Assembly: GCF_008831285.2 (NCBI RefSeq)
Contig: NC_045140.1
Location: 9,980,505-10,044,504, forward strand
DNA: 64,000 nt
From: Nymphaea colorata
Lineage: Eukaryota > Streptophyta > Magnoliopsida > Nymphaeales > Nymphaeaceae
Direction: 5' to 3'
Part shown: piece by piece, positions 32,281-63,135 of the stretch
How the letters are laid out: every line of letters begins with the position of its first letter
How positions within the stretch are numbered: position 1 is the stretch's first letter
The notes under the pieces: model-generated
Told to the model about the DNA's origin: nothing
What the model saw: the letters and a program-made list of their open reading frames with translations, nothing else
The model's database searches: none
Translations under genes and position numbers: made by a program

Positions 32281-32529
32281 ATATATATAGAAGCTTCCGG
32301 CCATGCAGAGCTCCAGACGTGAATAAACAAACTGCTGGATGCAACCGGATCCAATGCATAGAGCAGTTTGCTGTGAGAAAGGCAAGTGGATTTTGGATGG
32401 AGACTCCAAGGATCCTTCTAATGATGTTAAGTTGGATATGTTCTAAGTATGAATTTGGCCCTACACAAGATCTGATCAAACTGCAGCATCTACAACAAGC
32501 ACACCCATATGTACGTACATACATACACA

Positions 32530-33469
32530 TTTACATATAGGTTCAGAAGTACCTCACAATAAGTCTAATGTGATAATGTCAATCTACCTTTTTGTAGATT
32601 CTAAATTTGATTGGATCAGATATTGAATATGTATAGAACTGCTTATTATGGACTGTATTTGACACGACAACTAATACTATGTATAAATTATAGAATTTTG
32701 ATCTTGTCTGATATTCTTTAGAGAGAGAGAGAGAGAGAGAGAGATCAATGTTAGGTTTAAAGTCCGTCATCTTTCAAATGCTTGAACACATAAATATTGG
32801 CTTTAATTTTATTGCCATCTCAAAACGCATGCCAATTAACTGATTAACAGGGAACTGGCCATGCAACTTCAAGGAAATTAGTATCAATGCAAGTTAATCA
32901 ACCCATGCACCAAATGCCTATACTAATTTCCCAAGACCCTCATCATCTTCCCATTTCAACTGCAGGCATGCGTGAAATGACAACTCCAGTTTCCAGGAAA
33001 GGGTTACGGATTTGTCTCAGCAATAATCTATATCCACATTAAGGCCGGAACATGTTAACTAATTTCGCAGGGCCGTCGACTTCCAACTTCTCCATTCATG
33101 AAATGACAACCACATTTTTCCTGAAAATGCTAGGAAGTTACCATGTCCACAAAATGCAGTTTAGAGATTATCATCTGTAGTTTCATGCACGAAACACCGA
33201 AGAAACTTCGAAAACACGTGAGCTGATTTTCACAGAAAGTGGTTGTGGAATATTACGATCATCATCTCCAATGTCTCTGATCGGTCGTCATTTTTCAATT
33301 TCCATGATCGGCATTTCCACGTGCTTTCCTGTCGTAGCATTCATGCAAGCAAGTGAAGGTTTGACCTGAAATCCTTCTCCACACTTTCCCTACTCTCCCT
33401 CTCTCTCTCTCTCTCTTTTCATACACACACACACAATGTTGCAAGAGGTATGTGGCTTGATTTATTTTA
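32530..33469 (+). repeat. Duplicated segment, copy 1, left part
   Basis: Collinear with 46983-47943 over its whole length, apart from substitutions, small indels and a private (GA)n tract; a partial third copy lies at about 59045-59330. Its continuation is at 40349, on the far side of a Copia insertion. The segment carries CT-rich leader-like sequence near 33395-33420 and may be a promoter/5' UTR region of the gene family seen at 51-63 kb. Confidence 0.85.
32721..32744. repeat. (GA)12 microsatellite
   Basis: Present in copy 1 of the duplicated segment; the same place in copy 2 (about 47195-47208) is only a short purine-rich stretch. Confidence 0.9.
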
Positions 33470-33624
33470 TGTAAAGTTCATTTAGTGGGCCGGCATATGT
33501 CAATGAGAAATTTCAGACATTATGGCAGTCTTAATGTACATATCCGATCAAGTGCTTGCATTTTGGGATATCACGTCATTTAATATGGTATGGGGTATTT
33601 TTATAATATATGGATACCCGTATG

Positions 33625-33661
33625 CAATTACGGATTCTTTGACGAGTTGAATCCGTAATTG
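33625..33661. promoter_or_regulatory. U3 palindrome next to TATA box
   Basis: CAATTACGGATTC, an 11-base loop, then GAATCCGTAATTG: a perfect 13-bp inverted repeat ending 7 bases before the TATA box. The same pair of arms, less perfect, occurs in the 3' LTR and in both LTRs of the second element. Confidence 0.8.
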
Positions 33662-33668
33662 CTCATAA

Positions 33669-33676
33669 TATAAAAG
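33669..33676 (+). promoter_or_regulatory. LTR TATA box
   Basis: TATAAAAG in the 5' LTR; the 3' LTR has the same box at 40081-40088. Confidence 0.7.
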
Positions 33677-33920
33677 CGTAGTGGTCCTTGGGGTCGTGCA
33701 GTAAAGAGAGTTGAAACATCACTTTCTAAAGTTGTCTCTTCCCCATCTGAGAGAAACCGCACGTGCTCCGCACAGACTCTGGAAGATCCTACTGCGATCT
33801 CACCATCCGGTTGTTCAGATAGATTCAGGTACGCTTCTGCTTTAGCGATTGAGCATGAACGAGATCCTTCTTTAGGGCATATTCTTTTGTTTGTATATGC
33901 ATTAGGAAATCTCCATCAAT

Positions 33921-33932
33921 TGGCATCAGAGC
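33921..33932 (+). other. Primer binding site, tRNA-iMet type
   Basis: TGGCATCAGAGC, two bases after the 5' LTR; one mismatch to the usual TGGTATCAGAGC. Confidence 0.9.
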
Positions 33933-33933
33933 C

Positions 33934-35415
33934 TATGTTTATTCTTAAATCATTGGTTTTTTGGGTTAGTTGTTGGTGCATCCGCACAATTTTTTGGATG
34001 AATTTGTGTGTTTGCTCTCTGATCGGATCGGCGGTGGCTATCATTGGACAGAAGAAAGGCTTTTGGGCCTTCTTTCTCTCTGTCGAACGACAGCCACAAC
34101 AATCAATCGTAGTCCCTTTCCCATTCTCTGTTGCACGCCTTGGAAGGCTAGAGAGGAAGGCGGGGAAGGAGCAATGGGCAGTGTAACTTCTCCCCTGCCC
34201 CTTTCCTTGCCCCTCTAAGGAAAAGCACTGCCTCTTCCTCCTCCAATGACAGTCGTGGCAGAGTCACAAACTGGTGGGATCGGAGAGGGATGGACGATAG
34301 GAGGAGGTTGGCAACGACTTAAGGGAGAGCGGCACCATCGGTCCTCTCCATGGAGACGTTGGGCGATGGAAGCCATTAGGCTTCCATTGCAGCCACAAAA
34401 GGGGAAGGGGACGGTCGGATTCCGCCTATTTTGGCGGGCGACGGCTGGCTTCCGGCCGTCCTGGCGCGACCCGCCAATAGCCACCCACGTTGTTGCGTGG
34501 CCTGCCAATGGAGTTCCACCATTCGCCTACCGTTCGGCAGGCAAGCGGTGGAGCCACTGCCTGAAACCGCTTGCGTGGTAGGCGGACGGACCCGGGTCGG
34601 GTCAGACATGTTCATTGGGTTCTGAAACTGATTCAGTCTATTTTTTATCGGTTCGTCCAATTTTTAATCTGGTTCAGTCCTATTTAGGGCCATGTGGGTG
34701 TTTTAGTTGCGGTTTAAGAACGATACGGGCCATTTTAAGGTCGATTCAATAGTTCTTGACCCACTTAAGAACAATTTTGGTACCGGTTTATAAAATTTTG
34801 GACTCTTTTGGGTCTATTCATTAAACCATTTGGTTTTGGATTCAATGTAAGGCAAATTTGTATGTAATTTTTTTTCTTTAATATATGTATCATGTTTTGC
34901 ATGTTATTAAAATTGTAAGTGTACCTTAGATGAATATTTGGACTATGAATTTGATCTTTGGTCATGTCTATTGTTTGAAATGAGTAATGTAATACTTTAT
35001 GTCGCCAAAGTGATCTCTGTTGTATGAATTTGCTTGTTTTAAACATTAGATGATAGTATACTTAATCCATGTGAGTAATGATCAACCCAAAAGAGGATTG
35101 TTGCTTGGTCAGGTTTAAGTATACAGGGTAATAAATATGTGGTAATTTTCAGGTTTCTATATGAATAGTGAGTCAATCCAAAGATGGGCTCGTTATTTGA
35201 CAAGGGTAATTATCTATATTCATTATTGACCAAGAATATCACTTGCAGTTAATATTTCAATCCAAAGATTGGATATTAATGTTGCACTAGTACTTTGTGA
35301 TGAGATTTGGACCATTGTATTTAAATTCATTTACATTTGTTATTTTACCTATGTACATGTATTGGTTGTGAGCATGTTTGGTATTTTTGTTCTTTGTACA
35401 GCGAGTTCTACTTCC
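33934..35415 (+). other. Long untranslated leader of element 1
   Basis: About 1.5 kb between the primer site and gag. It includes a GC-rich island (about 34080-34600) that is alien to the AT-rich rest of the element and is shared with the second element. Short ORFs over it (for example 34246-34581) are not conserved as proteins. The leader ends with TTGTTCTTTGTACAG at about 35387-35401, an acceptor-like site kept in both elements, so the leader may be spliced. Confidence 0.6.
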
Positions 35416-36250
35416 ATGATATCTGCAAACTTGAGTACTATTCCTGAGTTAAATTGTTCAAATTTTAAGGATTGGAAAGAAACTGTTATGATTGTCCTGG
35501 GTTGCATGGATTTATACCTTGCATTTAGGGAGTCATCCCCACCTCAGTTAACAGATGAAAGTTCTCATGAAAATAAGCAGAACTTTGAATGGCGGGAGTG
35601 CTCAAATCGTATGTGTCTAATGATAATAAAGAAATCAATCCCAAAAAACTTTAGGGGCTCAATTACTGAAAAGGCTAGTGTCAAGGCGTTCCTCGAAAAA
35701 ATTGAAAAGCGTTTTGCTAAAAACGAAAAGGCTGAAACAAGTACTATTTTGAGTAAACTTGTGATGCTGAAATATAAAGGCAATGAGAACATACAGGAGC
35801 ACATTATGAAAATGTCTCATCTTCCTTCAAAACTACAGGCACTAGATCTGAAGTTACCTGAAGACTTCATAGTGCATATGGTTCTCCTTTCTCTTCCACC
35901 ATAATATGGACAGTTTAAAATTAGTTATAACTGTTAGAAGGAGAAATGGACTCTTAATGAGCTCATTTGGCACTGTGTTGACGAAGAGGAGAGAATGAAA
36001 CATGATAAGATAGAAAGTGTTCATTTGGCAACTATGTCTAACAGTAAGAAAAGAAAGACTATTATGGAAGTTGCAGTTGATCATTCATCCATTAAAAAAT
36101 AAAAGAAGCATAAGGAAGGCAAATCAGACTGTTTCTTTTGCAAGGGTGAATGTCATATGAAGAAGGATTGTACCAAGTATCACGTATGACATGAAAGGAA
36201 ATGTACGCTTTTCACTTTGGTTTGTTCTGAGGTTAATTTAATTTTAGTAC
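35416..36250 (+). pseudogene. Copia gag of element 1
   Basis: From the ATG at 35416 the frame reads S-T-I-P-E-L-N-x-S-N-F-K-D-W-K-E-T, the gag N-terminus, and stays open to a TAA at 35902-35904. The same frame then continues through further stops. A CCHC zinc knuckle (CFFCKGECHMKKDC) lies near 36130. Gag would form the virus-like particle and bind element RNA. At least three in-frame stops make it non-functional. Confidence 0.9.
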
Positions 36251-39240
36251 CCAGACACACTTGATGGGTAGATTCGAGTGCTACTACTCACATAAGTGTT
36301 TCTATACAGGGCTGCCTAAATTGTCGGATGCCAAATGATGCTGAAAGATTCATCTATTTGGGCGATGACAAGAAAGCGAACGTTGAAGCCATAATAGATT
36401 TTCTGTTATTGTTAAAGAGTGGTTGTTATTTAAATTTGACAGAAACTTATGTAGTACCGTCTTTTATACAAAATTTGATTTCTATTTTCTTACTGGACAA
36501 ATTTGGTTATTATTATTCATTTGGAGGAAGTAAATTTAAGTTGTTTCTGCATTCAAATTTGATTGCCACTGGTTCTTTGTCTGGTAGCGATAACTTCTAT
36601 TTGCTTGATATAGTTGTTTCATATCATGAAACCTTGCATGTTACGTATAGTGGTACTAAAAAAAAATTAGCCAATGAGAATTCTGCTATGTTGTGACATA
36701 GGTGCTTAGGACATATCTTTGAAAAGATGATCAAAAGGCTTATGTCAAATGAAATTCTTAAATCTCTTGATTTTATAGACTTTAATGTTTGCATTGAATG
36801 CATAAAGGAAAAACGAACGAACATTAAGAAAATATGTGCAAATAGAGTTTCAGACGTCTTAGAACTGATTCATATAGATGTTTGTGGTTCATTCCTTACG
36901 GCTTGTTGGAATGGACAACAATATTTTATTATGTTCATAGACGATTATTCTCGTTATGGTTAACTGTATTTGTTTCATGAGAAGTCTCAATCCTTAGAAG
37001 TTTTCAAATCATTTAAAGCCGAAGTTGAGAATCAATTAGGTAAAATGATTAAAGCCGATAGATCTGACCGTGGTGGTGAATACTATGGTAGATTTGATGG
37101 ATCAGGTGAACAATGTTCAGGCCCTTTCGCTAAGTACCTAGAGGAATGCGGTATAGTCCCTCAATACACCATGCCGGGTTCTCCCAGAATGAATAGTGTA
37201 GTTGAGAGACGAAATCAGACTCTTATGATATGGTGAGGAGTATGATAAATCATTCTACCTTACCGAAGTCCCTCTGGTGAGAGGCATTAAAGACTACAAC
37301 TTATATTATCAATAGAGTGTCATCAAAAGCAGTACCGAAAACCCCATATGAATTATGGACAGACAAAACGCGTAGTATGAAGCACTTTCATGTTTGGAGA
37401 TGTCCAGCTGAAGCGAAGCCATATAGGCCAAACGAAAGGAAATTGTACTCTAAGACGGTTAGCTATCATTCCTGCCATTGTTCCATCAACATATTTAGGA
37501 GAAAGCAACGATGATGGTATCCCTATTCAAACCACTGAAAAACAAACTCAACAACCTTAAGAAAATCAAGTAGAGGTGTCACTGATGAGATCCACTAGAA
37601 AGAGGAGAAGCACAATTTCAAATGATTTTGTCTATCTCCAAGAGCATGATGTTGATATGGGCTTAATGGAGGATGATCCTATTAACCTCTAGCAAGCGAT
37701 AAAGAGTTTTAAATCTCATAAGTGGATAGATGCCATGAATGAGGAAATAAAGTCCATGATGGATAATGACGTATGGGATGTTGTTCCCTTACCTGAAGGT
37801 GTGAAACTCATTTGTTGTAAATGGATATTTAAAACCAAAAGAGATTTATTAAGAAACATCAAAAAGTATAAGGCATGTCTTGTTACAAAGGGCTATACTC
37901 AAAATGAAAGCATTGATTATAGAGAGACTTTCTCTCTAGTTTCGATGAAGGACTCTTTCAGGACCATAATGGCACTTGTGGCTCATTTTGACTTAGAGTT
38001 GCATCAGATGGATGTAAAGACAACCTTTCTAAATGGAGACATTGATGAAACGATATATAGTGCAACCAGAAAACTTTGTTTTAGGGGATGCAAAGAAAAT
38101 GGTCTGCAAACTCAAGAAATTCATCTATGGGCTAAAGCAAGCTTCCCGTCAATGATATTACAAATTTCATCAAGTTATAGTTTCATTTGGTTTTGAGACT
38201 AATATGGTTGCTGAATGTGTATACCAAAAGTTCAGTGGAGGTAAATTTATTTTTCTGGTTTTATATGTCGATGATATATTGTTGGCAAGTAATGGTGTAG
38301 GTATATTGCATGAAACTAAGAAATTTTTATCAATAAAGTTTGACATGAAGGTTCTTGGTGATGCATCTTTTGTATTTAGGATCCAGATATTTCGATATCA
38401 CTCTCGGGATATTCTTAGATTATCACAAAAGGCCTACATTGATAAGGTGCTTTAGTGATATGGCATGAAAAATTACAAACCAGGAGATACTCTAGTTGCT
38501 AAATGAGACAAGTTTAGACTCAAACAACGCCCTAAAAGTGAACTTAAATTTAAAGAAATGGAAAGGATTCCTAATCATCTGTTGTGGGAAGCCTAATGTA
38601 TGCTTAGGTTTGTACCCATTTGGACGTTGCATTTATCGTTGGAATGTTAGGCAGATACTTAAGTAATCCTGGTATGGATCATTGAAAAACAGCCAAAAGA
38701 GTATTGAGGTACTTATAAAGAACAAAACATTTTATGTTCACATACAAGAAGTCAGACCAGTTAGAGAACATTGGGTATTCAGATTCTGACTTTGCAGGTT
38801 ACCAAGACAATAAGAAGTCTACTTCAGGTTATGTATTTCTATTGGCTGGAGGAGCTATATCTTGAAAAAGTATCAAACAGACACTAGTAGCTACTTCAAC
38901 CATGGCAGCAGAATTCATAGCATGTTACAAGGCATCCAATCATGCTTTGTAGTTGCGGAATTTTGTCACGGGGCTACACATTATGAATGGTGTAGAAAGA
39001 CCACTAAAGTTATTTTGTGATAATAATTCAGCAGCCATGTACTCTAATAACAACCGCAGTTTGTCAAAGTCAAAGCATATCGACATTAAGTTTTTGGCTG
39101 TTAAAGAGAAGATACAAAATGGTCAGGTGTCTTTAGAGCATATTGGGACAAACTCTATGATTGCAGATCCGCTTACTAAAGGTTTAACACTCAAGGTCAT
39201 TCACGGACATGTTGTTCGTATGGGGGTTTTATCCTTGAAT
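36251..39240 (+). pseudogene. Copia pol of element 1
   Basis: Protease relic WVDSSATTHIS at about 36265 has Ser where the catalytic D-S/T-G triad needs Gly. A pre-integrase H-R-C-L-G-H follows near 36700. The integrase core (HIDVCG, FIDDYSRYG, SDRGGEYYG, V-V-E-R-R-N) spans about 36860-37230. RT starts near 37735 (MNEEIKSMMDNDVWDVVPLP), has Q-M-D-V-K-T-T-F-L-N-G and the catalytic YVDD at 38264-38275. RNase H (Y-S-D-S-D-F-A-G near 38770) ends with H-I-G-T-N-S-M-I-A-D-P-L-T-K-G near 39140. Several stops and frameshifts separate the pieces. Confidence 0.95.
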
Positions 39241-39278
39241 GATGTGTTGGTTAAGTGGGAGTTTGTATTTTATTTTAG

Positions 39279-39725
39279 TATAGACACATATTCAGTTTTC
39301 TATAGAATATAATTTAAAGTTCTTTGATTTCATTCTGTGTTTGTGTTTTTTGATCTCCATAAGGTTTTAAAGTAGGACCAGTTGAGAATAGACATGTTGT
39401 AATCACATTACATGTAATTTTCATGCTACACATCCATACTAGATCTATGTCATTGATTGTATCAATATTTGTGATAATTGAAGGGTTTAAAGTTTGAAAC
39501 CAAAGGTCTTATGTATAGACACATATTCAATTTTCTATAGAATATAATTTAAAGTTCTTTGGTTTCATTCTGTGTTTGTGTTTTTTGATCTCCATAAGGT
39601 TTTAAAGTAGGACCAGTTGAGAATAGACACGTTGTAATCACATTACATGTAATTCTCATGCTATACATCCATACTAGATCTATGTCATTGATTGTATCAA
39701 TATTTGTGATAGTTGAAGGTTTAAC
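39279..39725 (+). repeat. About 235-bp tandem duplication in the 3' UTR of element 1
   Basis: The segment from 39279 to 39513 is repeated from 39514 with few differences. The second element has only one copy of this region (about 52440-52620), so the duplication arose in this lineage or after insertion. Confidence 0.85.
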
Positions 39726-39870
39726 TAATGTTAATATAGTGAAAGCCGCTTTGGTTCTGTGTTGATATAATCATGAATGAGATTGGTGAAAAATGACGTT
39801 TAATAAGACAACAGTTATGAGCTCCTAAGGTTTTATATAATGTCTGAATGTATAAAGATATATTTGGCCC

Positions 39871-39881
39871 AAGTGGGAGAT
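39871..39881 (+). other. Polypurine tract of element 1
   Basis: AAGTGGGAGAT immediately before the 3' LTR; the second element has the same tract next to its 3' LTR. Confidence 0.85.
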
Positions 39882-40348
39882 TGTAAGGATCATTTGGTAG
39901 GCCGACATATGTCAATGAGGAATTTCAAACATTATGGCTATCTTAATGTACATATCCGATTAAGTGATTTCGTTTTGGGATATCACGTCATTTAATATGG
40001 TATGAGATATTTTTATAATGTATAGATGTCTATACGCAATTACAGATTCATTGAAGGGTTGAATCCATAATTGCTCATAATATAAAAGGGTAGTGGTCCC
40101 TGGAGTCGTGCAGCAAAAGAGAGTTGAAATATCGCTTTCTAGGGGTGCCTCTTCCCCATCTGAGAGAAACAGCATGTGCTCCACACAGGCCCTGGAAGAT
40201 CCTACTGCGATCTCACCGTCTGGTTGTCCAGATGGATTCAGGTACACTTCCGCTACAGGTAAAGTTTTGATTCAGTGATTTAACATGAACGTGATCCTGC
40301 TTTAGAGCATATTCTTTTGTTTGTATATGCATTAGGAAATCTCCATCA
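39882..40348 (+). repeat. 3' LTR of element 1
   Basis: Starts TGTAAGG and ends CCATCA; partner of 33470-33918. It contains TATAAAAG at 40081-40088 and a decayed version of the U3 palindrome just upstream. Confidence 0.95.
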
Positions 40349-51286: not shown

Positions 51287-51290
51287 ATGA

Positions 51291-51684
51291 TACTTTTACC
51301 AACCTTTTTCTCGAGTCTCATCCAGGGCTCCATCAAGAGCAACGCTCATTGAGGGCGAACATCGCCCATCCCCACCGGACAGTACACCCACGGAGCTGCC
51401 ACCAACAGAATCTACACGGGAGGCGGCCTCAGAGGCAAATCTCAGAGATGCACCTGCTGCCGCTGGCACTTCATCTTCGCAGGACGAGGTACGGATCGAA
51501 TTAGGAGAAGGCGACGTAGCTTCCACCGCGGACGGTACACCCACAGACCTATCATCACCGGAGTCTAAACCGGAGGCCGCTTCAGAGGCGTATTACGATG
51601 ATGCACCTCCCACTGGTACTTCAGCTTCGCCGGACGATGTACGGATCGAGTTAGGAGAAGGCGAGGTAGCTTCCACCACAGAGG
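51291..51684 (+). CDS. Gene A exon with two 51-residue acidic repeats
   Basis: Open frame from about 51291 to GTACGAG at 51685 (donor, phase 1). It contains two tandem 51-codon units (51378-51530 and 51531-51683), each ending V-R-I-E-L-G-E-G-[DE]-V-A-S-T; the region is rich in Ser, Thr, Pro and Glu and probably disordered and soluble. There is no ATG in this frame: the only nearby ATG (51287) is one frame off and stops after 22 codons, so an unseen upstream exon or a frameshift must be assumed. It joins in phase to exon 57629-57799 across the Copia-filled intron. Homologous in position and junction phase to the repeat exon of gene B. Family not recognised. Confidence 0.6.
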
Positions 51685-51777
51685 GTACGAGTTCACTAAC
51701 TAAAGCAGGCGCATGTCTTTTTCCTAGTTGTGTTTCCTCCTTCGTTTCTCTCCCTTTATTTTGTTACTCTGAAAGCG

Positions 51778-51782
51778 CGTAC
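51778..51782. repeat. Target-site duplication of element 2, left
   Basis: CGTAC, identical to 57615-57619. Confidence 0.93.
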
Positions 51783-52257
51783 TGTTGGGATTTCTCCCTA
51801 TAACGCATATACGAAACCAAACGTATATACCCTAAAACAGGATCATGCTCATGCTAAATCATTGAAATAAACGAAACCTTAAACTGAAGCGGAAGCGTAC
51901 CTGAATCCATCTGATCTGGTACACGGGAAGATCGCAGTAGGGTCTTCCAGGGTACGTGTGGCGCGCTTGAGGTCTCTCTCAGATGAGGAAGAGAAAAACC
52001 CTAAAAACCAATGTTTCAGGCAACCATTGCACGACCCCAGGGACCACTACCATTTTATAATAAGGACAATTACGGATTCCACCCATCAAAGAGTCCGTAA
52101 TTCCGTACTGGTATCTATACATTTCAAAATTACCCCATACCATCTAAAATGACGTAATATCCCAAAATGCAATCACTTAAGCGGATATTTACGTTAAGAC
52201 AGCCATAATGTCTGAAATTCCTTATAAACATATGTCGGCCCACCAAATGATCTTACA
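51783..52257 (-). repeat. 3' LTR of element 2
   Basis: Plus-strand ends TGTTGGG...TCTTACA; 475 bases. TATA box on the minus strand at 52052-52059, and U3 palindrome arms at 52067-52079 and 52091-52102. Confidence 0.96.
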
Positions 52258-52272
52258 ATCTCCCACTTGGGC
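52258..52272 (-). other. Polypurine tract of element 2
   Basis: The minus strand reads GCCCAAGTGGGAGAT directly before the 3' LTR. Confidence 0.85.
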
Positions 52273-52639
52273 CAAATATGTCTTAATACATTCAAACATT
52301 ACATAAAACCTTAGGAGCTCATAACTGCTATCTTATTAAACATCATTTCACCAATCTCGTCCATGATCATATCAACACAGAACCAAAGCAGCTTTCGCTA
52401 TATCAAAAGTTAGTTAAACCTTCAATGATCACAAATGTTAACATAACCAATGACATAGATCTGATATGGATGTATAGCATGAGAATTATATGCAATGTGA
52501 TTACAACATGTCTATTCTCAACTGGTCCAACTTTAAAACCTTATGGAAATCAAAACATAAACACATAATGGAACCAAAGAACTTTAAACTTTATTCTGCA
52601 GAAAACTGAATATGTGTCCATACATAAGAGCAAACAAAA

Positions 52640-54345
52640 TACAAACTCCCACTAAACCAGCACATCATCCAAGGATAACACCCCATATAAACAACATGTT
52701 CGTGAAAGACCTTATGTGTTAAACCCTTGGTAAGCGGATCCGCAATCATAGAGTTTGTCCCAATATGCTCTAAAGACACCTGACCATTCTGTATCCCCTC
52801 TTTAACAGCCCAAAAACTTAATGTCGATGTGCTTCGACTTTGACAAGTTGTGGCTGTTATAAGAGTACATGACTGCTGAATTATTGTCACACAACAACCT
52901 TAGTGGTATTTCTATACCATACATAATGCGCAGCCTCGTGACAAAATTCTGCAATCACAAAACCTGATTGAATGTCATTATCTTGGCACCCAGCAAAGTC
53001 AGAATCTGAATACCTAATGATCTCCCACTGGTCTGACTTTCTGTATGTGAGCATAAAATCTTATGTTCTTTTTAAGTACCTCAAAACTCTTTTGACTGCT
53101 TTCCAATGACCCATACCAGAATCACTTAAGTATCTGCCTAACATTCCAATGATAAATGCAATATCCAAACGAGTACAAACCTGAACATACATAAGGCTTC
53201 CCACAATAGACAAATAGGGAATCATTTTCATTACTTTAGATTCGATTTTACTTTTAGGGCACTGTTTGAGACTAAACTTGTCTCCTTTAGCAACTGGAGT
53301 CTTTCATGGTTTACAATCCTTTATGTCATATCGCTGAAGCACCTTATCAATGTAGGCCTTTTGTGATGATCCAAGAATACCCCGAGAACGATCTCGAAAT
53401 ATTTGGATCCCCAATACAAAAGATGCACAACCAAGATCCTTCATGTCAAACGTTGTTGACAAAAATTTCTTAATTTCATGCAATATACCCACATCATTAC
53501 TTGCCAACAATATATCATCGACATATAAAACCAGAAAGATAAATTTGCCCTCACTGAACTTTTGGTATACACATTCATCAACCATATTAAATTCGAAACC
53601 AAATGAAACTATAACCTGATGAAGTTTGTAATACCATTGACTGGAAAACTTGCTTTAGCCCATAGATGGATTTCTTGAGTTTGCAGACCATTTTCTTTGC
53701 ATCACCTAAAGCAAAGTTTTTTTGTTGCACCATATATATCATTTCATCAATGTTTCCATTTAGAAACGTTGTTTTAACATCCATCTAATGCAGCTCTAAG
53801 TCAAAATGAGCTACAAGTGCCATTATAGTCCTGAAAGAGTCTTTCAACGAAACTTGAGAGAAAGTCTCTGTATAATCAATGCCTTCCTTTTGAGTAAAGC
53901 CCTTAACGACAAGACGTGTCTTATACCTTTCGATGTTACCTAATGAATCCCTCTTGGTTTTAAATATCCATTTACAACCAATGAGTTTCACACCTTCAGG
54001 CAAAGGAACAACTTCCCATACATCATTGTTCATCATGGACTTGATTTCCTCATTCATGGCATCTATCCACTTAAGAGATTTAGAACTCTTTATTGCTTGC
54101 TGGAGGTTGACAGGATTATCCTCCATTAAGCCCATATCAACATCATGTTCTTGGAGATAGACAAAATCATTTGAAATTGTATTTCTCCTCTCTTTAGTGG
54201 ATCTTCTCATTGGCACCTCTGCTTGATTTTCTTGAGGTTGTTGAGTTTGTTCTCCAGTAGGAAGATCGACATCATTGCCTTCTTCTGAATAGAGTGGACT
54301 CAGGTCCCTCTTTAAAGGCAATATGTTTAACCTAATCACCTCTCC
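52640..54345 (-). pseudogene. RT-RNase H of element 2
   Basis: On the minus strand a 184-codon frame (54339-53785) runs from the pre-RT linker through AMNEEIKSMMNNDVWEVVPL to F-D-L-E-L-H and ends in a TAG that replaces the Gln codon of H-Q-M-D-V-K. The next frame continues to about 53587. The catalytic YVDD is at 53514-53525. An RNase H C-terminus with H-I-G-T-N-S-M-I-A-D-P-L-T-K-G lies near 52735-52780, but the central RNase H stretch (52900-53300) is frame-broken. Confidence 0.9.
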
Positions 54346-54530
54346 AAACTCAATATCCTCAAAGAAATGGGCATTTTCCTTTTCAAAGAAAGACTTACTG
54401 AATGGATTATAAAACTTATAACCCCTTAATGTTTGTTCATTTTCCCTTTATACATACAATGCAAACATTAAAGTCTGCGAAATCAAGGGACACAAGAATT
54501 CCTTTTGACATAAGCCTTTATATTCTCTTT

Positions 54531-55260
54531 TCAGAGATATGTCCTAAGCGCCAATGCCACAACATAATAGAATTCTAATTTGCTAATTTTACTTTTAGTA
54601 CCACTAGATGTAACATGCAAGATTTCATTATATGAAGCAACCATATCAAGCAAATAAAGGTTATCGCTACTAGACAAAGAACTAGTGACAATCAAATTTG
54701 AGTGCAGAAACAACTTAAATTTACTTCTTCCAAATGAACAATAATAACCAAACTTGTTCAATGAGGAAATAGGAACCAAATTCCATCTAAAAGACGGTAC
54801 CACATAAGTTTCTGTCAAATTCAAATAGCAACCAGTCTTTAACAATAACCAACAATCTGCTATGGCTTCAACCTTCGCCTTCTTGTCATCGCCCTCATAG
54901 ATGAATCTTTCAGCATCAATTGGCGTCCGACAATTTAGGCAGCCTTGCATAGATACTATGTGAGTAGTAACACCGAATCTACCCACGAAGTGTTTCTGGG
55001 TACTGAAGTTAAATTAACCTCAAAACAAACCAAAGTGAAAAGTGTACCCTCCATTTCACGCCATGCGTGATACTCAGTACAATCCTCCTTCATATGACCT
55101 TCACCCTTGTAAAAGAAGCAGCCTGATAGGCCTTCCTTATGCTTCTTCTGTTTCTTAACGGATGATTGGTCAACTGCAACTTCATTAACAGTCTTTCTTT
55201 TCTTACTCGAAAAAATCGAATCATTTAACTCAGGAATAGTACTCAAAATTTGCAAATATC
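54531..55260 (-). pseudogene. Gag remnant, protease and pre-integrase region of element 2
   Basis: Minus strand: the gag start fuses by deletion to its lysine-rich tail. The zinc knuckle reads C-F-F-Y-K-G-E-G-H-M-K-E-D-C, with the second Cys changed to Tyr. The protease block (S-W-V-D-S) shifts frame, and a 150-codon frame (54986-54531) carries Q-G-C-L-N-C-R-T-P to the pre-integrase region. The integrase catalytic core is absent. Confidence 0.85.
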
Positions 55261-55999
55261 ATATAAGCAGAACTCACTGTACAAAGAATAAACCAAAGCA
55301 TGCTCACAATCAATACATTTACAAAGATGAAACAACAAATATAAATGAATTTAAACACAATGGCCCAAAACCCATCACAAGGTACCGGTGCAACATTAAT
55401 ATCCAATCTTTGGATTGAAATATTAACTGCAAGTGGCATTCTTGGTCAACAATGAATATAGATAATTAACCCTGTCAAACAACGAGCCTATCTTTGAATT
55501 GACTCGCTATTCACATGGAAACTTGAAAAATTATCATATATTCATTGCCCTGTATACTTAAACCTGACCAAACAACAATCCTCCTTTGGGCTGATCATTG
55601 TCCGCATGGATCAAGTATACTATCATCTAATGTTTAAAACAAGCAAATTCGTACAACAGATGTCACTTTGGCGACATAAAGTACAAACGTACTCATTTCA
55701 AACAACAGACATGGTCAAAGATCAAAATTCATAATCCAAACATTCATCTAAAGTACACCCATAAATTTAAAAAACATGCAAAACATGATACATGAATTAA
55801 AATTTACATATAAAATTGTCATTCATTGAATCTAAACCAAAATGTTCCAATAAAAGAGGCCCAAAAGTGTCCAAAATTTTATAAACCGATACCATAATTG
55901 TGCTTAAGTGAGTCAAGAACCACTGAATCGCCTTAAAGTGGCCCGTATTGTTCTTAAACTACAACAAAAAACACCCACATGCCCCTAAATAGGGCTGAA

Positions 56000-56320
56000 C
56001 CGGTCAAAAATAGACCGTATCGATTCCAAAACCCAATGAACCGGTTAAAAAAATGGCAAAAATAGGTTCAAAAACTGAATGAACCGGTCCTGAAAGCCCT
56101 GAATCGGTTCAAAAACTGAATGAACCGGTCTGAAAATGCCCGAATCGGTTCGAAAATCAACTTAATCGGTTCTGAAATGCTAGAATCGGTTCCAAAACTG
56201 AATGAACCGGTCCCAAAATGGTCCGAATCGGATCTGAAAAGTCCGAACCGGTTCAGAATCGATTTGAATCGGTCTGAAACTGAATGAACCGGTTCGATTC
56301 TTTTCAAAACCGGTGCGCGG
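56000..56320 (-). repeat. Minisatellite in the leader of element 2
   Basis: Roughly ten degenerate copies of a unit with GAACCGGTTCAAAAACTGAAT or its AATCGG variants, spaced about 18 or 36 bases apart. The matching leader of element 1 (about 34600-34800) has only a few such motifs, so the array expanded in this copy. Confidence 0.75.
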
Positions 56321-56329
56321 GCGAGCGCG

Positions 56330-57010
56330 GCAAAATGTTGTTTTTTTTTAAAAAAAAATCTGATGGATCCGGATCGGGTCTGCAAGACCCGACCCGGTCC
56401 GACCCGCTGCCTACCGCGCGTGGTTCGCACACCGCTGCTCAACCGTTGGCCTGCCCAACGGCAGGCGAACGGTGGAACTCCACCGACAGGCCTCCGGAGA
56501 GCTTGGGTCGGCGCCGGCAGGTGCCGCACGGCACCGTCCGGCGACGGCTAAGTCGCCGGCAGGTCTATGACCGGCCGTCGCCCTCTGGCAGTGCCCTAAT
56601 TTCTCAGTTTTTGCGCCTTTTCTGATTTCCGCCCCTATCGACTGGAATGGGCGGCCGAAACGGCAGCGGGCAGGCCGCGGGTGGGCACCGGTGGGTCGCA
56701 CGGCTCCGTCCGGCGACGGCGAACCCGCCGGTGGCCTCCCTCCCCAGTCGTCGCCCATCAACGGAAGGCCAACGCCTTCCATCGTCTCCCTGCCTTCGCC
56801 TTTTCCCTTCCTCTTGTTTTCTTCTTTCATGGCTGCGAAGGAGACACCGACGGCACCGACAGGCCACCCACGGCATGGGTGGCCGCAGGCAGCGACGCGC
56901 CCCAACGGCCGGAGGCCCGCCATCGCCCAACGGCGACAGACGCCCCCGATCCTGTCGTCCCCTTCTACGCTGCAACGGAAGCCCGACGGCTTCCGTCGCA
57001 TGCCCTCAAC
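56330..57010 (-). other. GC-rich leader island of element 2
   Basis: High-GC segment of the leader, with CCGGC/GCCGG motifs and long open frames on both strands (for example 56411-57067 minus, 56681-57160 plus). Frames on both strands and poor agreement with the homologous island of element 1 (34080-34600) argue against a conserved protein. The short V-P-P-F-A-[CY]-R-x-A-G segment is the best-kept part. Confidence 0.6.
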
Positions 57011-57124
57011 ACAATTTTTTTTTTTTTTTTTGAAAAACTTGCAGCCGAAGAACCAAACGAGGAACATCCGAACGGGAAACGACGCACAAAATCATCAACA
57101 ATCAACGATTTAACGAAGAACATA

Positions 57125-57137
57125 GGCTCTGATACCA
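57125..57137 (-). other. Primer binding site of element 2
   Basis: The minus strand reads TGGTATCAGAGCC, the exact tRNA-iMet site, two bases inside the right LTR. Confidence 0.95.
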
Positions 57138-57139
57138 AA

Positions 57140-57614
57140 TGTTGGGATTTCTCCCCATAACGCATATACGAAACCAAACGTATATACCCTAAAAAAGGAT
57201 CATGCTCATGCTAAATCATAGAAATAAACGAAACCTTAAACTGAAGCGGAAGCGTACCTAAATCCATCTGATCTGGTACACGGGAAGATCGCAGCAGGGT
57301 CTTCCAGGGTACGTGCGGCGCGCTTGAGGTCTCTCTCAGATGGGGAAGAGGAAAACCCTAGAAACCAATGTTTCAGGCAACCATTGCACGACCCCAGGGA
57401 TCACTACCATTTTATAATAAGGACAATTACGGATTCCACCCATCAAAGAGTCCGTAATTCCGTACTGGTATCTATACATTTCAAAATTACCCCATACCAT
57501 CTAAAATGACGTAATATCCCAAAATGCAATCACTTAAGCGGATATTTACGTTAAGACAGCCATAATGTCTGAAATTCCTTATAGACATATGTCAGCCCAC
57601 CAAATGATCTTACA
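57140..57614 (-). repeat. 5' LTR of element 2
   Basis: 475 bases, same length as the left LTR with no indels seen. TATA box on the minus strand at 57409-57416. It drives transcription away from gene A's sense direction. Confidence 0.96.
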
Positions 57615-57619
57615 CGTAC
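57615..57619. repeat. Target-site duplication of element 2, right
   Basis: CGTAC, identical to 51778-51782; part of the intron of gene A. Confidence 0.93.
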
Positions 57620-57628
57620 ACCCTTCAG

Positions 57629-57799
57629 TCAATGTAGCAAGTGAACAGGAAGGAGGTGAGAAGAATTTGTTGCTCGGCGTTGCTCTCCTCTGCCTTGATG
57701 CTCGCTCCAGCCTTTTCAAAGCCGCGTCTCCCTCACACCGCTGCTACGTGTCCCTCACCGTTCTGGGCATAGCTTTTGCCTTGTACGTTTGGCATGCAG
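57629..57799 (+). CDS. Gene A exon 2, membrane segments
   Basis: 171 nt between CCCTTCAG and GTGCGTT, phase 1 in and phase 1 out, no stop. It encodes a short linker, N-L-L-L-G-V-A-L-L-C-L, a loop with S-S-L-F-K-A-A-S-P-S-H, and a hydrophobic helix (VSLTVLGIAFALYVW). The paralogous exon of gene B (62658-62826) keeps N-L-L-[LI]-G-x-A-L, S-L-F-[KR]-A-x-S-P-S-H and L-G-I-A at the same positions. The likely role is an integral membrane anchor; biochemical function is not recognised. Confidence 0.68.
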
Positions 57800-57982
57800 G
57801 TGCGTTTCTAAAGAGTACCTATATGAACCCTGGGTTTTCACTTACGATTCACGAAAGTAAAGCTCTTTTAATTTCCTTGGTTATGTGATGATCCCACGGC
57901 TGGTTAATGCCTCCACTGAATTCCATCTTTCTTGCCTGTAACAACCCGAGAAAGAATAACTAAATTAAGTAATATTTTGCAG

Positions 57983-58092
57983 GTACCGACATGTCAAAGA
58001 CCAAACAGCAATGGTTTCTAAGGGTCTCTACGATTTCCCTGAATGGAGCTCTGATGACATTGGTGGCCGTTTCTCTGCGTGGATTTTTTTAA
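57983..58092 (+). CDS. Gene A exon 3, C-terminus
   Basis: Starts after TATTTTGCAG, completes a Gly codon, and ends in TAA at 58090-58092. It contains a further hydrophobic segment (VSTISLNGALMTLVAVSL). Gene B exon 3 aligns over G-x-x-M and S-T-I-x-L-x-G-A-L. Together exons 2 and 3 give about 93 residues with two or three membrane-spanning segments. Confidence 0.65.
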
Positions 58093-59044
58093 TCTTCTTG
58101 ACGAAGAAAAAAAGAGCCTACTCAGTTCAGCTTTAAAGGAGATTGCTAATAGTGGTGGTACACCTTTCATCTTTCCCCCATCCCCCATGGTTAGGCTCGT
58201 AGAGATGGGGAGGGGCTCGGTGGCTCCACAAATATGGAGAGATTCTCAAGTTTTCGTATCAAACAAGTGGGAGCAATCAGCAGATTCGGCAGAAGTTCTT
58301 CTTCACCCTCGTTTGCATTCTCTCTGTTGCTTCGTTCATGCATTATTTTAAAAGTTCCTTCGTTGGACTTTTATTATCTCATTTGTTCCACGCGGTACAT
58401 GAATAAACGTTCTGTGAGCATAAGGAGAAAATGTGTTCCATGTGGTATGTGTTCCATGTGGTGTCTCGTTACTCATATATATGTATTTTATAAAGTACTT
58501 ATTTGTGTGGTCTCAAGTAAAGCTATTGAACTACCCCGAGTAAATGCTCACTTCGTATTTTGGTAAAAGAGTGAAAAAATTTCTCCCTCATGAAAATATA
58601 AATTTTATTTATTTTTTTTTATCTAAAAACAAGTAAGAAAAACAAATATGTTGGAAATTTTCTCCTTCTAAAATTTTTCCGCTCTTAAATGTATGCTTAA
58701 AAATATTACTGTTTTTTATTCTGTTTCTTCTCCAACAACTGTGCAAGCACCCCTACTGTTGCAAAGGATGAATTGGCTGTCAATCAATAATTAATTGTCA
58801 CTAAAAAATAATCGTAGTTTAGACATTATCAATAGGGATGTTGGCAGTTTGCTGCGGGAAGGCACTACATGATTGATCTCTGGCTTTTCATAATTACGTT
58901 ATTAGTTATAGGGTTATCTATAACAGTACTGTATGGGCTCATCTAAACATTCAAGATCCTGTCTTAATTTGTACTCGTGGTAATTAAGCTTGAAGAAATG
59001 ACTAGCTGGTTATTGTCCGAAGCCCGGCTGCTCGATTTCTGCTA
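58093..59044. other. Probable 3' UTR of gene A, then spacer
   Basis: AT-rich with no further exon. Polyadenylation signals cannot be chosen with confidence. Confidence 0.4.
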
Positions 59045-59330
59045 GTTCGTCATCTTCCGAACGCAACGTGTGAACACACAAACATTGGCATTAATTTGAT
59101 TGCCATTTCAGAACGCGTACGCGTTGTAGAATAACAGGGAAATGGCCGCGCAATTTCATGGAAATGTCAATGCAATTCACAATCAGCATTTCGGCAAGTT
59201 TGTCAAACCTGCGTAGGAAACGCATAATTTTCCAAAACGTCATCGTCTTTCAATTTCACCTGCAACCATGCATGAAATGGCAACTTCAGTTTCCAGGAAA
59301 AGACTAAGAAATTTGTCTGAAGTTACGTCT
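59045..59330 (+). repeat. Duplicated segment, partial copy 3
   Basis: Aligns with 47223-47482 and 32762-33010 (for example CGTCATCTTCC near the start and CAGTTTCCAGGAAA near the end), with more divergence and a small internal insertion. It precedes gene B by about 2.6 kb, as copy 2 precedes gene A. Confidence 0.75.
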
Positions 59331-60170
59331 CAATTTCCTCAACGACAAAAAATATTTCAGTTCCAGCATATATAAGCTAAAATTGACCATGCCTCTTGGG
59401 TATATCTATTCATTCGAGGACAGTTTTAGAATGATCTTTATATACCCACTCATTTGTGGCAGTTTGGCTCTGCCCTCTCGATCTTTCTTTATGTTTTTGG
59501 AATCTTATTCTTGCGTCTCACACAAAGCGAGAGAGAGAGAGAAAGAGAGAGAGTCGATAAAATGAAAATGTATAACAAAATTTAAGAACAAGAACTCTTC
59601 TAGATACAAGAACAAACTACAAAAACAAGAATAAAATATACAACATATGAGCACAATAAAACAAAATAAGAAGAGTAAAGAGAGAGTGGATAGATGGAAT
59701 GACAATCACCTAACAGCAAACGAAAGATGGTGCTGTAGCCTAATAGTAAAGTGGGCATTCCTACACAAGGTATGCCACAGAATCTGACGATGAGAATGTG
59801 CCCCTGAAGTCTCTGCTATCACGCTCCTCCCAAATGTGGGAAGAGAGAAAGTGTGTAGTGAATCAAGTGTCGAGTGGATACAGGAGTGAAAAGAGTTTTG
59901 ATGCTCAAGTTCATGATAAGGGCTGCCAAACACATGCGTGCTTAATTTTAAAATCGTTTAAAAAAAGTACATTTCTTTTGAAAATTTTGGGTTTGTATGG
60001 ATATCAACAAAGGGAGTAAATTAAATTTCAAGAAGAAACCATCCACTGGAATAAAGTTCTAAGTCTCCATCAGATGAGGATGCTATAAAATCCAATTTGG
60101 GTCCGTTGTCTGATTGAATAAACTCCAAAAAGAGAGAGAGAGAGAGATATTGAAATAAATTATAATATTA
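59331..60170. other. No gene recognised
   Basis: Includes a GA-rich tract at about 59528-59554 and AT-rich spacer. Confidence 0.4.
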
Positions 60171-60420
60171 GATTAAAAGATGAAATTGGATCTGGATTTA
60201 GAAAACACAACCGATTGGATCCGTATCTGAATTTGTATTAAGTTCGAATTTATTTTCCAATAAATATCTAATATCCAATGTCCACTCTTTTTGAAAGTCG
60301 ACTTATAACATATTACAGTGTGGTTAATTAGGATTCCATTTGAAAGCCCATTGATTTCTCTTCCATGTGTTTTCAAGTAAGAATTCAAACCTAAATATAT
60401 AAAGATCATTGATGTGGTTA
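60171..60420. repeat. AT-rich motif field related to 25480-25890
   Basis: GGATCTGGATTTAG and GGATCCGTATCTGAAT motifs in a non-coding AT-rich context resemble the element at 25.5 kb. Boundaries not resolved. Confidence 0.3.
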
Positions 60421-60505
60421 AGAGAAGATCCTGTTGGAATGGACTTCCCTACCCTCGGGACAAATGGGTAAAATTGACCTAATGATTTTTCACAATGGCG
60501 AATTA

Positions 60506-60508
<3 letters not shown>

Positions 60509-60541
<33 letters not shown>
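60509..60541. repeat. (TA)n microsatellite
   Basis: Uninterrupted TA tract. Confidence 0.93.
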
Positions 60542-60543
<2 letters not shown>

Positions 60544-61558
60544 GTCCATCAAATTGATAATGCTAGTCTGCCTGATTAGAGCAATTGTGTGAAAATATCA
60601 GAAGTATAGTCGAAAGTTGGGGGCACCTTGCTTTTTTCATCTAATGGAGAAGAAGCATGCACAAACTAATTCCGTTTAAGAAGAAAAAAAGCCTTTTTTA
60701 CGAGGATAAAAACTAAGTTATAAAAAAGGTTAAAAGTTTAAAATGTATATTTTTTTATAAAATTTCAAAAAAACTCACACCCCCTTCTTTTCCCTTGAGT
60801 GTATTTTTGAGCATGAAATGACTAAAATGCCCTCATTTGGAGATAAGAGACATTTTGTAAGGTAAAAAATGAAATGAAGATTAGAGCTTCTTTTTTACAA
60901 AAATAAAAAATAATCCTCAACACAAAAGTGTGCGAATGGAACGGAGGCCCACCTTGCCCGTGGAGGTTGTTGTTTCAGGATCTATGAGTGCTACTGTGTC
61001 ATTTCCAAAATTTTTACACGAACCAAATTAGATCACCTTTGTTAATGTTATATATCAAAAACATTTATATGCGAACGGCAGTATTATAAAAAAATAGGAT
61101 TTCAAGTGAATATGCCAGGGTGCGAAATTCAGCTGAACTTTTTACGAAAACGCAGATAACAATATTATCATATACACATTTTACAAAAAATTAAAAAACA
61201 CAAAAGAATATTAGCAAATAAAATAACCTTTAAAGAAAAAAAAGAGAAATATAAGGTGGTGTATAACTAATGCAGTACCCTTGGATACAGCAATTTATAG
61301 AAGCTTTCCATCAAATTTTCGATCCTTATAAAATGTCAATATTTAAACATGCAAATAAACAAAGACAATATTTATCCACTTCAATGTATTTTGAATAGGT
61401 AGTTTGAGGAATCACAGTTTAAAGTCTTCCTTCAATTGTTTTACCATTTTTAAAGTAAGGATCTGTTCTCGTTAAATCAATATTTTAATTGATTGTATGA
61501 ACGATCTTTTGTAAGAGAGGGAGAGAGTCGATCGGCTGTTCTGCTCGGTAAAGATGAA

Positions 61559-61560
<2 letters not shown>
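60542..61560. other. No gene recognised
   Basis: AT-rich. The last part, with GAGAGG motifs, is probably promoter or 5' UTR of gene B. Confidence 0.4.

Positions 61561-61592
<32 letters not shown>
61561..61592. repeat. (GA)n microsatellite in the gene B leader
   Basis: GA tract about 350 bases before the gene B ATG; GA/CT tracts in this position are common in plant 5' UTRs. Confidence 0.9.
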
Positions 61593-61595
<3 letters not shown>

Positions 61596-61943
61596 GCGAA
61601 ATTAGCAGGAAGCCAGAGAGAGGAAACCCGAAATTAACAGGAAGCTGTGCGACACCTTCCTGGCCCTTGTCCTCTCATTCTTTCCCGTCAGACCTCCTCG
61701 CCGTTGTGTCGCGGCGAGAGAGGGAGAGAGAGCGTGCGAAGACGAAGACGAAATGAACAGGAAGTGGGAGAGCCAGAAAGGAAAAATTAACGTAAATTGA
61801 GAGAGCAATGATGAAGAAGGAAACACGAAACTAAGACGAAGCACTGGGAGTCTTCTCCTCTTATTATCTTTTCCTCGCTGAGACCGTCGTTGTTGTCGTG
61901 TCGGAGAGGGAGACATCTGCAAGGAAGAAAAAGAAGGAAAGAC

Positions 61944-62505
61944 ATGACTTCCAAACGAGTTGCTCCATCTGCGCAGGTGGAGGTGCAGGTTCCTCTTCCA
62001 AACCCGGCGGTTGCTCCATCTGCGCAGGTGGAGGTGCAGGTTCTTCTTCCAAACACGCCGGTTGCTCCATCTGCGCAGGTGGAGGTGCAGGTTCCTCTTC
62101 CAAACCCGGCGGTTGCTCCATCTGCGCAGGTGGAGGTGCAGGTTCCTCTTCCAAACACGCCGGTTGCTCCATCTGCGCAGTTGGAGGTGCAGGTTCCTCT
62201 TCCAAACACGCCGGTTGCTCCATCTGCGCAGTTGGAGGTGCATGTTCCCCTTCCAAACTCCCCGATTAATCCATCTGCGCTGGTGGAGCTGCACGTTCCT
62301 CTTTCAAACCCGCCGATTGCTCCATCTGCGCAGGTGGAGCTGCACGTTCCTCTGCCAAACCTGCTGGTTGCTCCATCTGCGCAGGTGGAGGTACACGTTC
62401 CTCTTCCAACACCGGGTGCTCCAAGTTCTGCGGAGGTGGTGGCAGACCTTGAAGAAGGAAGAGTCGACGGGAGGATTAGTAGCCGAGAGGAGGCGTCCGA
62501 TGATG
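61944..62505 (+). CDS. Gene B exon 1, nine 17-residue repeats
   Basis: ATG at 61944 (first ATG in frame), then M-T-S-K-R followed by nine perfectly phased 17-residue units of the type VAPSAQVEVQVPLPNPA (61959-62417), then an acidic tail (EVVADLEEGR, SSREEASDD) resembling the end of gene A's repeat exon. It ends at GTGAGA, a strong donor, phase 1. The alternating Val/polar and Pro pattern suggests an extended, secreted- or wall-like or scaffold segment, but no signal peptide is present. Other frames are open only because the repeat unit is a multiple of three without stops. Confidence 0.6.
61959..62417 (+). repeat. 51-bp minisatellite, nine units
   Basis: Nine head-to-tail 51-base units, no indels, so reading frame is kept. 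Units 1-6 are near-identical; units 7-9 are more diverged. All six frames are open across most of it. Confidence 0.95.
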
Positions 62506-62657
62506 GTGAGACTTGTTACTAGACCATTTACAATTTCCGTGAGGCTGTAACCTTCTTGCTTCTCCATGTCTCTGTTTGTTGCCTGGGTCTGAAATTAGCG
62601 TGTGATTTTGTCAAAATTGAAGCGCAAAGTGGGCCGGAAGGAATTGTACCCTCTCAG

Positions 62658-62826
62658 AGCAGCACGATCTCTCGGAGGAGCAGTATTAAGTATAACCTGC
62701 TGATTGGATTTGCACTTATGAATCCTTCTTCCACCAGCCTTTTCAGGGCGGGTTCACCCTCGCATGCCTTGTACATGGGCTTAACTTCTCTTGGCATAGC
62801 GGGCTCCCTCTTACTTTCTTATGCAG
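62658..62826 (+). CDS. Gene B exon 2, membrane segments
   Basis: Follows CCCTCTCAG and ends at GTGGGT. The conserved frame reads N-L-L-I-G-F-A-L-M, SLFRAGSPSHALYMGL and L-G-I-A-G-S-L-L-L-S-Y-A-G, paralogous to gene A exon 2. It is 169 nt, two shorter than in gene A: entry phase would be 0, whereas exon 1 ends in phase 1. Either two bases were lost at the acceptor side (gene B broken), or an unrecognised splice choice is used. Confidence 0.6.
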
Positions 62827-63016
62827 GTGGGTAGTGCTTCTAAATTATTTGCTGTGTTCTTCGTTCTTGATTATGTATCATCAGTGTCAACTTAATTCCT
62901 TCATTGACCAGAAGCTCCGGCTGGCTACTTAACTGCCCGATCGACTGCATTCAATCTTTCTTCTCCTTTGTACAACCAGAGAAAAAATCACCAAACTAAT
63001 TGGTAACATGTTGCAG

Positions 63017-63135
63017 GTGACAGAATGCAAAGCAATGTTTTGCTGCTGAGCTCCACCATCCCCCTTCTTGGAGCCCTTTCGATGCTGGGTGTTGAGGCTT
63101 CAGTACAAGCTGAGTTTTTTCCATCTCGACATTGA
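63017..63135 (+). CDS. Gene B exon 3, C-terminus
   Basis: Starts after ATGTTGCAG, in phase with exon 2, ends in TGA at 63133-63135. It holds a hydrophobic segment (V-L-L-L-S-S-T-I-P-L-L-G-A-L-S-M-L-G-V) then a short polar tail with F-F-P-S-R-H. The tail is longer and more polar than in gene A. Confidence 0.6.

Follow-up and report, generated by a model that had tools for sequence, protein, structure and literature searches.

A multi-copy gene family of Nymphaea colorata with a probable pseudogene and an open copy that carries a private repeat array

The window analysed here, 64,000 nucleotides of the Nymphaea colorata genome (contig NC_045140.1, positions 9,980,505 to 10,044,504 of the forward strand), contains two related loci, A and B, each laid out in three exons and ending in a hydrophobic C-terminal part, the tail. 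An earlier note on this DNA had described A and B as a two-member gene family with variable N-terminal repeats. Our results show that the C-terminal exons of A and B are homologous and that the family consists of about 60 loci in the genome. The features of the two loci, with positions counted within the window, are the following:

51287..51289, plus strand: ATG of A, where exon 1 of the family starts, in a frame that differs from the rest of exon 1
51291..51684, plus strand: open frame of A exon 1, with two acidic units and no ATG; donor GT at 51685
51376..51688, plus strand: tandem repeat of A, period 150 bp, 2.1 copies, 80% match
51783..57614, minus strand: Copia long terminal repeat (LTR) retrotransposon in intron 1 of A, with LTRs, target-site duplication and reverse transcriptase
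57629..57799, plus strand: A exon 2, NLLLGVALL...ASPSH...LGIA
57983..58092, plus strand: A exon 3, FLRVSTISLNGALMTL, with stop
61944..62505, plus strand: B exon 1, with start, nine units of 17 residues and then the subfamily core EVVADLEEGRVDGRISSREEASDD; donor GT at 62506, phase 1
61959..62409, plus strand: 51-bp minisatellite of B, 8.8 copies, 91% match, private to the B locus
62641..62826, plus strand: B exon 2, its start being one of three in-phase acceptors (62599, 62623, 62641)
63017..63135, plus strand: B exon 3, STIPLLGAL, with stop

Local alignment of the A tail to the B tail reaches a score of 119, with 38 identical residues, while 2000 shuffles of A give at most 57. The shared hydrophobic C-terminal exons reported in the earlier note are thus borne out. 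The DNA at the end of exon 2 and in intron 2 aligns at 62% over 290 positions. For the shared splice positions that had also been proposed the picture is mixed: intron 2 interrupts the same codon in the same phase (GCA G|GT) in both copies, but the start of exon 2 in B is uncertain, and the acceptor at 62658, which aligns with the acceptor of A, is out of phase. A scan of the window for transfer RNA genes found none.

Searching the window's own genome (407.8 Mb) gave 62 clusters of family matches, 51 of them at E<=0.01. The core observation, a real family recognised by its tail, stands, although this family is larger and more ordinary than first thought. The queries were the A tail (27 matches), the B tail (65) and one whole relative (99), and matches within 2.5 kb were merged by hand into clusters, with rows for exons of already listed loci partly omitted. 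These searches score the best candidates only, so the family total may exceed 62 clusters. More than half of the clusters lie on contig C15 (32), followed by C11 (11), C4 (5), C3, C5 and C13 (3 each), C6 (2), and C8, C12 and C645 (1 each); the places on C6, C8 and C12 are weak matches. Three pairs (C5:18906216/18911319, C15:7196551/7201041 and C15:4396401/4401379) each probably represent a single locus, matched once in exon 1 and once in exon 2, which would bring the count to 59. On C15, the regions at 189-291 kb and 4.46-4.51 Mb hold inverted sets of near-identical copies (207144/4490434, 232106/4460886). These sets may be duplicated haplotypes in the assembly, in which case the locus count is inflated. 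In prokaryote and viral contigs, patterns matched 30 and 40 stretches, among which tblastn found no relative.

Exons 2 and 3 could be aligned for 42 loci, with L076, L081 and L082 excluded. The tree of these loci consists of four groups (subfamilies 1 to 4) plus A alone; it is midpoint-rooted, and the depth of A is provisional. B, a member of subfamily 4, pairs with a copy at C3:9950900, 92 kb away, and next with four copies on C15 and C645. As far as the aligned exons can tell, A and B are not sisters. Together with the number of clusters this contradicts the idea of a family of two.

Copy A is very probably a pseudogene, because the frame of its exon 1 lacks an ATG and a Copia element sits at the acceptor of intron 1. 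The ATG at 51287 lies in a region that aligns to the start region of L038 (71% over 56, E 8e-4), and its frame meets a stop after 21 codons. The open frame that follows contains acidic units of 51 and 50 residues, each with a DEVRIELGEG-type motif; the units had been described as both 51 residues long, which does not hold, while the nine 17-residue units described for B do. Exons 1 and 2 are 5.9 kb apart, and nearly all of this gap is Copia. The element has 475-bp LTRs with 12 differences between them, a target-site duplication CGTAC (51778-51782 and 57615-57619) and a match to reverse transcriptase (RVT_2, E 5.5e-18, minus strand). Only 14 bases separate its end from exon 2, and five of these belong to the duplication. 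Hence, the former acceptor context is lost.

The window holds other Copia sequences. At 33474-40334, on the plus strand, lies a second element from the family to which the insert in A belongs; the two are 75-88% alike in pieces, and the second one matches gag and reverse transcriptase. A remnant of another Copia, with gag and Pol_BBD matches, lies at about 31515-32540.

In copy B the three-exon frame is open, and its splicing and expression are putative. The three candidate acceptors are all in phase with the donor, and the open frame would encode 302, 294 or 288 residues for 62599, 62623 or 62641, respectively. Position 62641 is where intron 1 of subfamily 3 ends. What speaks against choosing it is that, of six subfamily 4 copies, only B and L030 have an acceptor of this type in phase. 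The 62623-type acceptor is in phase in all six.

Across the family, the first exon is short. In subfamily 3 it reads MNSITNLVRDFVG...PEQVEVDVELG...SDDG and then reaches the donor. In the four C15 and C645 copies of subfamily 4 it consists of MTFMKEVVADLDQGRVDGRISSREEASDDG only, and exon 1 of B ends in the same way after its nine 17-residue units. Splice sites of intron 2 are recognisable in the rows shown for subfamilies 2, 3 and 4. Five of the seven loci shown have an intron 1 with a GTGAG donor and a GGAG|GTA acceptor. In the other two, L038 and L042, intron 1 is absent and the sequence runs GATG|GTAATT precisely across the expected junction, which supports the intron model. A microhomology deletion is a possible cause, since both ends of the intron share GGT.

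We consider it quite probable that A and B belong, as two copies among many, to a single plant gene family, and that A is broken whereas B is open with a private array. The ancestral gene would have had three exons. The first would have been short, with a start, an acidic linker and an EVDVELGEG-like motif before a phase-1 intron. The second would have encoded a short conserved segment and a hydrophobic helix, and the third another hydrophobic helix. Judging from hydropathy, the resulting protein of about 110-170 residues would have been held in the membrane by its C-terminal helices. From there, duplication of multi-kilobase DNA blocks together with their introns would have multiplied the family. 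Copy A would have been broken by loss of the exon 1 frame and by the Copia insertion at the intron 1 acceptor, and the array of B probably arose through slippage or unequal crossing-over.

The best-supported proposal for the product is a small protein that has an acidic N-terminal part and is anchored in a membrane. Two segments with a hydropathy over 1.6 are predicted in L038 and L062. It counts against the proposal that A and B have only one such segment each, at the C-terminus, and L031 has none. The claim that no known family is involved holds up for Pfam: scans of A, B and three relatives against Pfam-A gave no match at the curated cut-offs (E 0.06-3.2, below the cut-offs, or nothing at all), including none to PGG or ankyrin, and hence no domain match that would refute it. 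A sequence search of the PDB gave no significant match either (best E 0.98 and 2.8). In NCBIfam, a prokaryote library, one of the five members matched MptB (E 0.0035), which we read as chance in the hydrophobic tail. The portions of the literature on lineage-specific plant families covered by a narrow look contain nothing to the point.

Did the family ever function? The ratio of nonsynonymous to synonymous divergence (dN/dS) between group sequences suggests, in part of the comparisons, that exon 2 was under old purifying selection when at least some subfamilies split. The bootstrap interval lies below 1 in three of six between-group comparisons: 0.30 (0.10-0.73) for subfamily 4 versus 3, 0.37 (0.13-0.87) for 4 versus 2 and 0.40 (0.16-0.93) for A versus 4. 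For exon 3, which was shortened in the between-group comparisons by excluding bases past the stop, only A versus subfamily 3 has an interval below 1 (0.33, 0.16-0.70). Many recent copies have since drifted or been broken. The simplest reading is an old functional gene whose recent copies are mostly decaying.

Several observations weigh against this reading. First, the other three exon 2 comparisons (0.61 for 3 versus 2, 0.87 for A versus 3 and 0.61 for A versus 2) have intervals that include 1, as do 2 versus 1 (1.17) and B versus its own subfamily (0.47, 0.06-1.81). Second, dN/dS of exon 3 is about 1 in most comparisons, with intervals including 1, and for B versus its own subfamily it is 3.5 (1.05-5.13). 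Third, the ratio of nonsynonymous to synonymous differences (pN/pS) of exon 2 within subfamilies is 0.62-0.82, and within-subfamily exon divergence is near intron divergence, being lower in subfamily 3 only.

One could argue that the whole family is dead now, such that the ancestral gene worked and all present copies, including B, are pseudogenes. Damage is common among the copies. A stop just before intron 2 is found in 15 of the 17 aligned subfamily 3 copies, the start of exon 3 is missing in nine of ten subfamily 1 copies, A is broken and the array of B shows no coding constraint. In contrast, B, L031, L032 and L033 all keep the ATG, the donor of intron 1 and an acceptor in phase, and their exons 2 and 3 are open; exon 2 of L044 contains a frameshift. 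The array of B also keeps the frame, although this would be true of any unit with a length divisible by three. On balance we consider a dead family possible but on the doubtful side, and prefer an old functional gene with mostly decaying recent copies.

How the family reached its copy number is a separate question. Most copies keep their introns, which means that the spread took place at the DNA level. In subfamily 1, comparisons over 2.4-4.4 kb show nine of ten copies, on C11, C4 and C15, to be about 95-99% alike (L065 is 87-95% alike). A flank about 1-2 kb downstream is common to 17 of the 18 subfamily 1 and 2 copies examined. Another, about 7.5-9 kb downstream of L068, recurs at a similar distance from seven of the ten copies in subfamily 1, among the best 40 of 97 candidates. 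Both downstream flanks also occur where no family copy is seen. The window itself contains at 20070-20658 (C3:10000574-10001162) a segment of 588 bp that is 95% identical to the repeat about 7.5-9 kb downstream of subfamily 1 copies.

The exons could be carried by a large transposable element as passengers, or form parts of it; the spread of this element would then explain the copy number, with no function for the host. The high similarity of the subfamily 1 copies across three contigs would fit such a carrier, as would the Copia remnants in the flanks and the flank segments that are found without any family copy. However, we saw no common ends, terminal repeats or target-site duplications in stretches of 3-5 kb around the copies. 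An 18-kb stretch (C11:23803800-23821800) has no long direct repeats on either side of the gene; the pairs present measure only 135 bp (upstream) and 97 bp (downstream). Constraint in part of the exon 2 comparisons also argues against mere passengers. Two candidate edges dissolved: a sharp, seemingly common edge at L066:1855 proved to be an upstream change private to L066, and the edge of L068 against L073 is a run of N in L073. Since no element ends were found in these stretches, we prefer block duplication and keep a carrier element as an unlikely rival.

The relatives of B on C15 and C645 show a further kind of duplication. Here, a single exon 2 is preceded by units repeated in tandem, each about 0.92-1.05 kb long and containing a first exon:

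C15:5715000-5803000 and C645: first-exon-unit loci L033, L044, L031 and L032

There are six units at the exon 2 of C15:5797150, six at C15:5740020, five on C645 and two at C15:5715091; B itself has one. The set on C645 is spaced like the set at C15:5797150 and is perhaps its other haplotype. Eight first-exon copies are readable; all eight keep the donor, and in seven the frame is open up to it. These loci might be multi-first-exon genes of a plant, in which units with their own upstream sequence, start and donor serve one pair of membrane exons, while the first exon of B grew internally instead, through its private 51-bp array. We think this idea improbable. Compared with the query unit, first-exon segments are 91-98% alike at the DNA level, and four of the 20 core places that lie outside B contain a stop, which makes plain tandem duplication the likelier reading.

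The repeats that first drew attention to A and B are private additions of A and of B and not a trait of the family, contrary to the pattern of diverged N-terminal repeats that the earlier note had seen in it. Genome searches with the acidic units of A matched only those units themselves. The nine 17-residue units of B, which add 153 residues, have no convincing match elsewhere in the genome: apart from the core (residues 163-187) and the opposite strand of B, exon 1 of B found two weak, stop-ridden places (E 0.10 and 5.7). Scanning the 42 aligned loci around exons 1 and 2 revealed a long tandem array in a coding first exon in B alone, the exon 1 array of A lying outside the A stretch scanned. 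No repeats occur in the first exons that could be read in subfamilies 2, 3 and 4, and the four nearest copies of B with a readable exon 1 have no array. The relation 51 = 3 x 17, pointed out in the earlier note, finds no support as a sign of homology either, since 105 of 1000 shuffles match the alignment score of the two first exons.

Is the array of B coding sequence? A single 51-bp unit opens several frames on both strands, and open frames in the array are therefore weak evidence for coding. Variable columns are spread evenly over the codon positions (7, 6 and 7) and pN/pS is 1.5 over the nine units, so there is no sign of selection. In a control with eight units the ratio is 2.22 in the reading frame and lower, 0.52, in another frame. 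A predicted structure of exon 1 of B, with one strand per 17-residue unit, was left unused (mean predicted local distance difference test score 53, predicted template modelling score 0.50). The case of B is a warning that open frames across a 51-bp array do not prove coding.

The family motif before the splice site likely recurs inside the units of A, and its presence inside those of B is uncertain. Shuffle tests with four motifs gave uncorrected p values of 0.015, 0.001, 0.000 and 0.173 for exon 1 of A and 0.046, 0.012, 0.033 and 0.565 for the units of B. Both first exons having repeats, and both units perhaps holding this motif, might be taken to favour the view that A and B form a two-gene family with functionally important diverged N-terminal repeats, but given a family of about 60 loci, the lack of long coding repeats elsewhere among the loci scanned, the broken state of A and the finding that A and B are not sisters, we regard it as highly improbable.

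Other arrays occur near family exons. L035, L041, L048 and L051 have an unrelated 24-bp tandem array upstream of exon 2, and three of them (one weakly) have a first-exon match about 4.4-5.1 kb upstream, as if the exons had been split by an insertion. Short arrays lie further upstream in L030, L036 and L039.

Taken as copies of one family, A, B and their relatives would show a plant gene family caught in expansion and decay, in which the membrane exons stay recognisable and the first exons change in three ways: by doubling of a unit (A), by a 51-bp array (B) and by tandem duplication of whole units (C15 and C645).

How does this family compare with known systems? The tandem first-exon units upstream of one common exon set resemble the multi-first-exon clusters of UGT1 and the clustered protocadherins (PMC3325998, PMC1885805, PMC4835542). 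Unlike those clusters, the units of subfamily 4 are nearly identical (91-98%) and show no evident isoform diversity. Transcription of the arrays would make them a plant example of multi-first-exon genes, and our narrow look at the literature says little about precedent. With coding minisatellites and tandem-repeat proteins, B shares an in-frame 51-bp array at one locus, but its units are without sign of selection and the array is known from one assembly. The conserved hydrophobic C-terminal helices resemble those of the PGG-domain ankyrin membrane proteins of plants, from which the family differs in having no PGG or ankyrin match in Pfam. Taxon-restricted, or orphan, multi-copy plant families are a further kind. 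The exon order and the tail are specific to the family of A and B, which was searched for in one plant genome, but like those families it has no recognised domain and exists in many copies, clustered as well as dispersed, of which many are broken.

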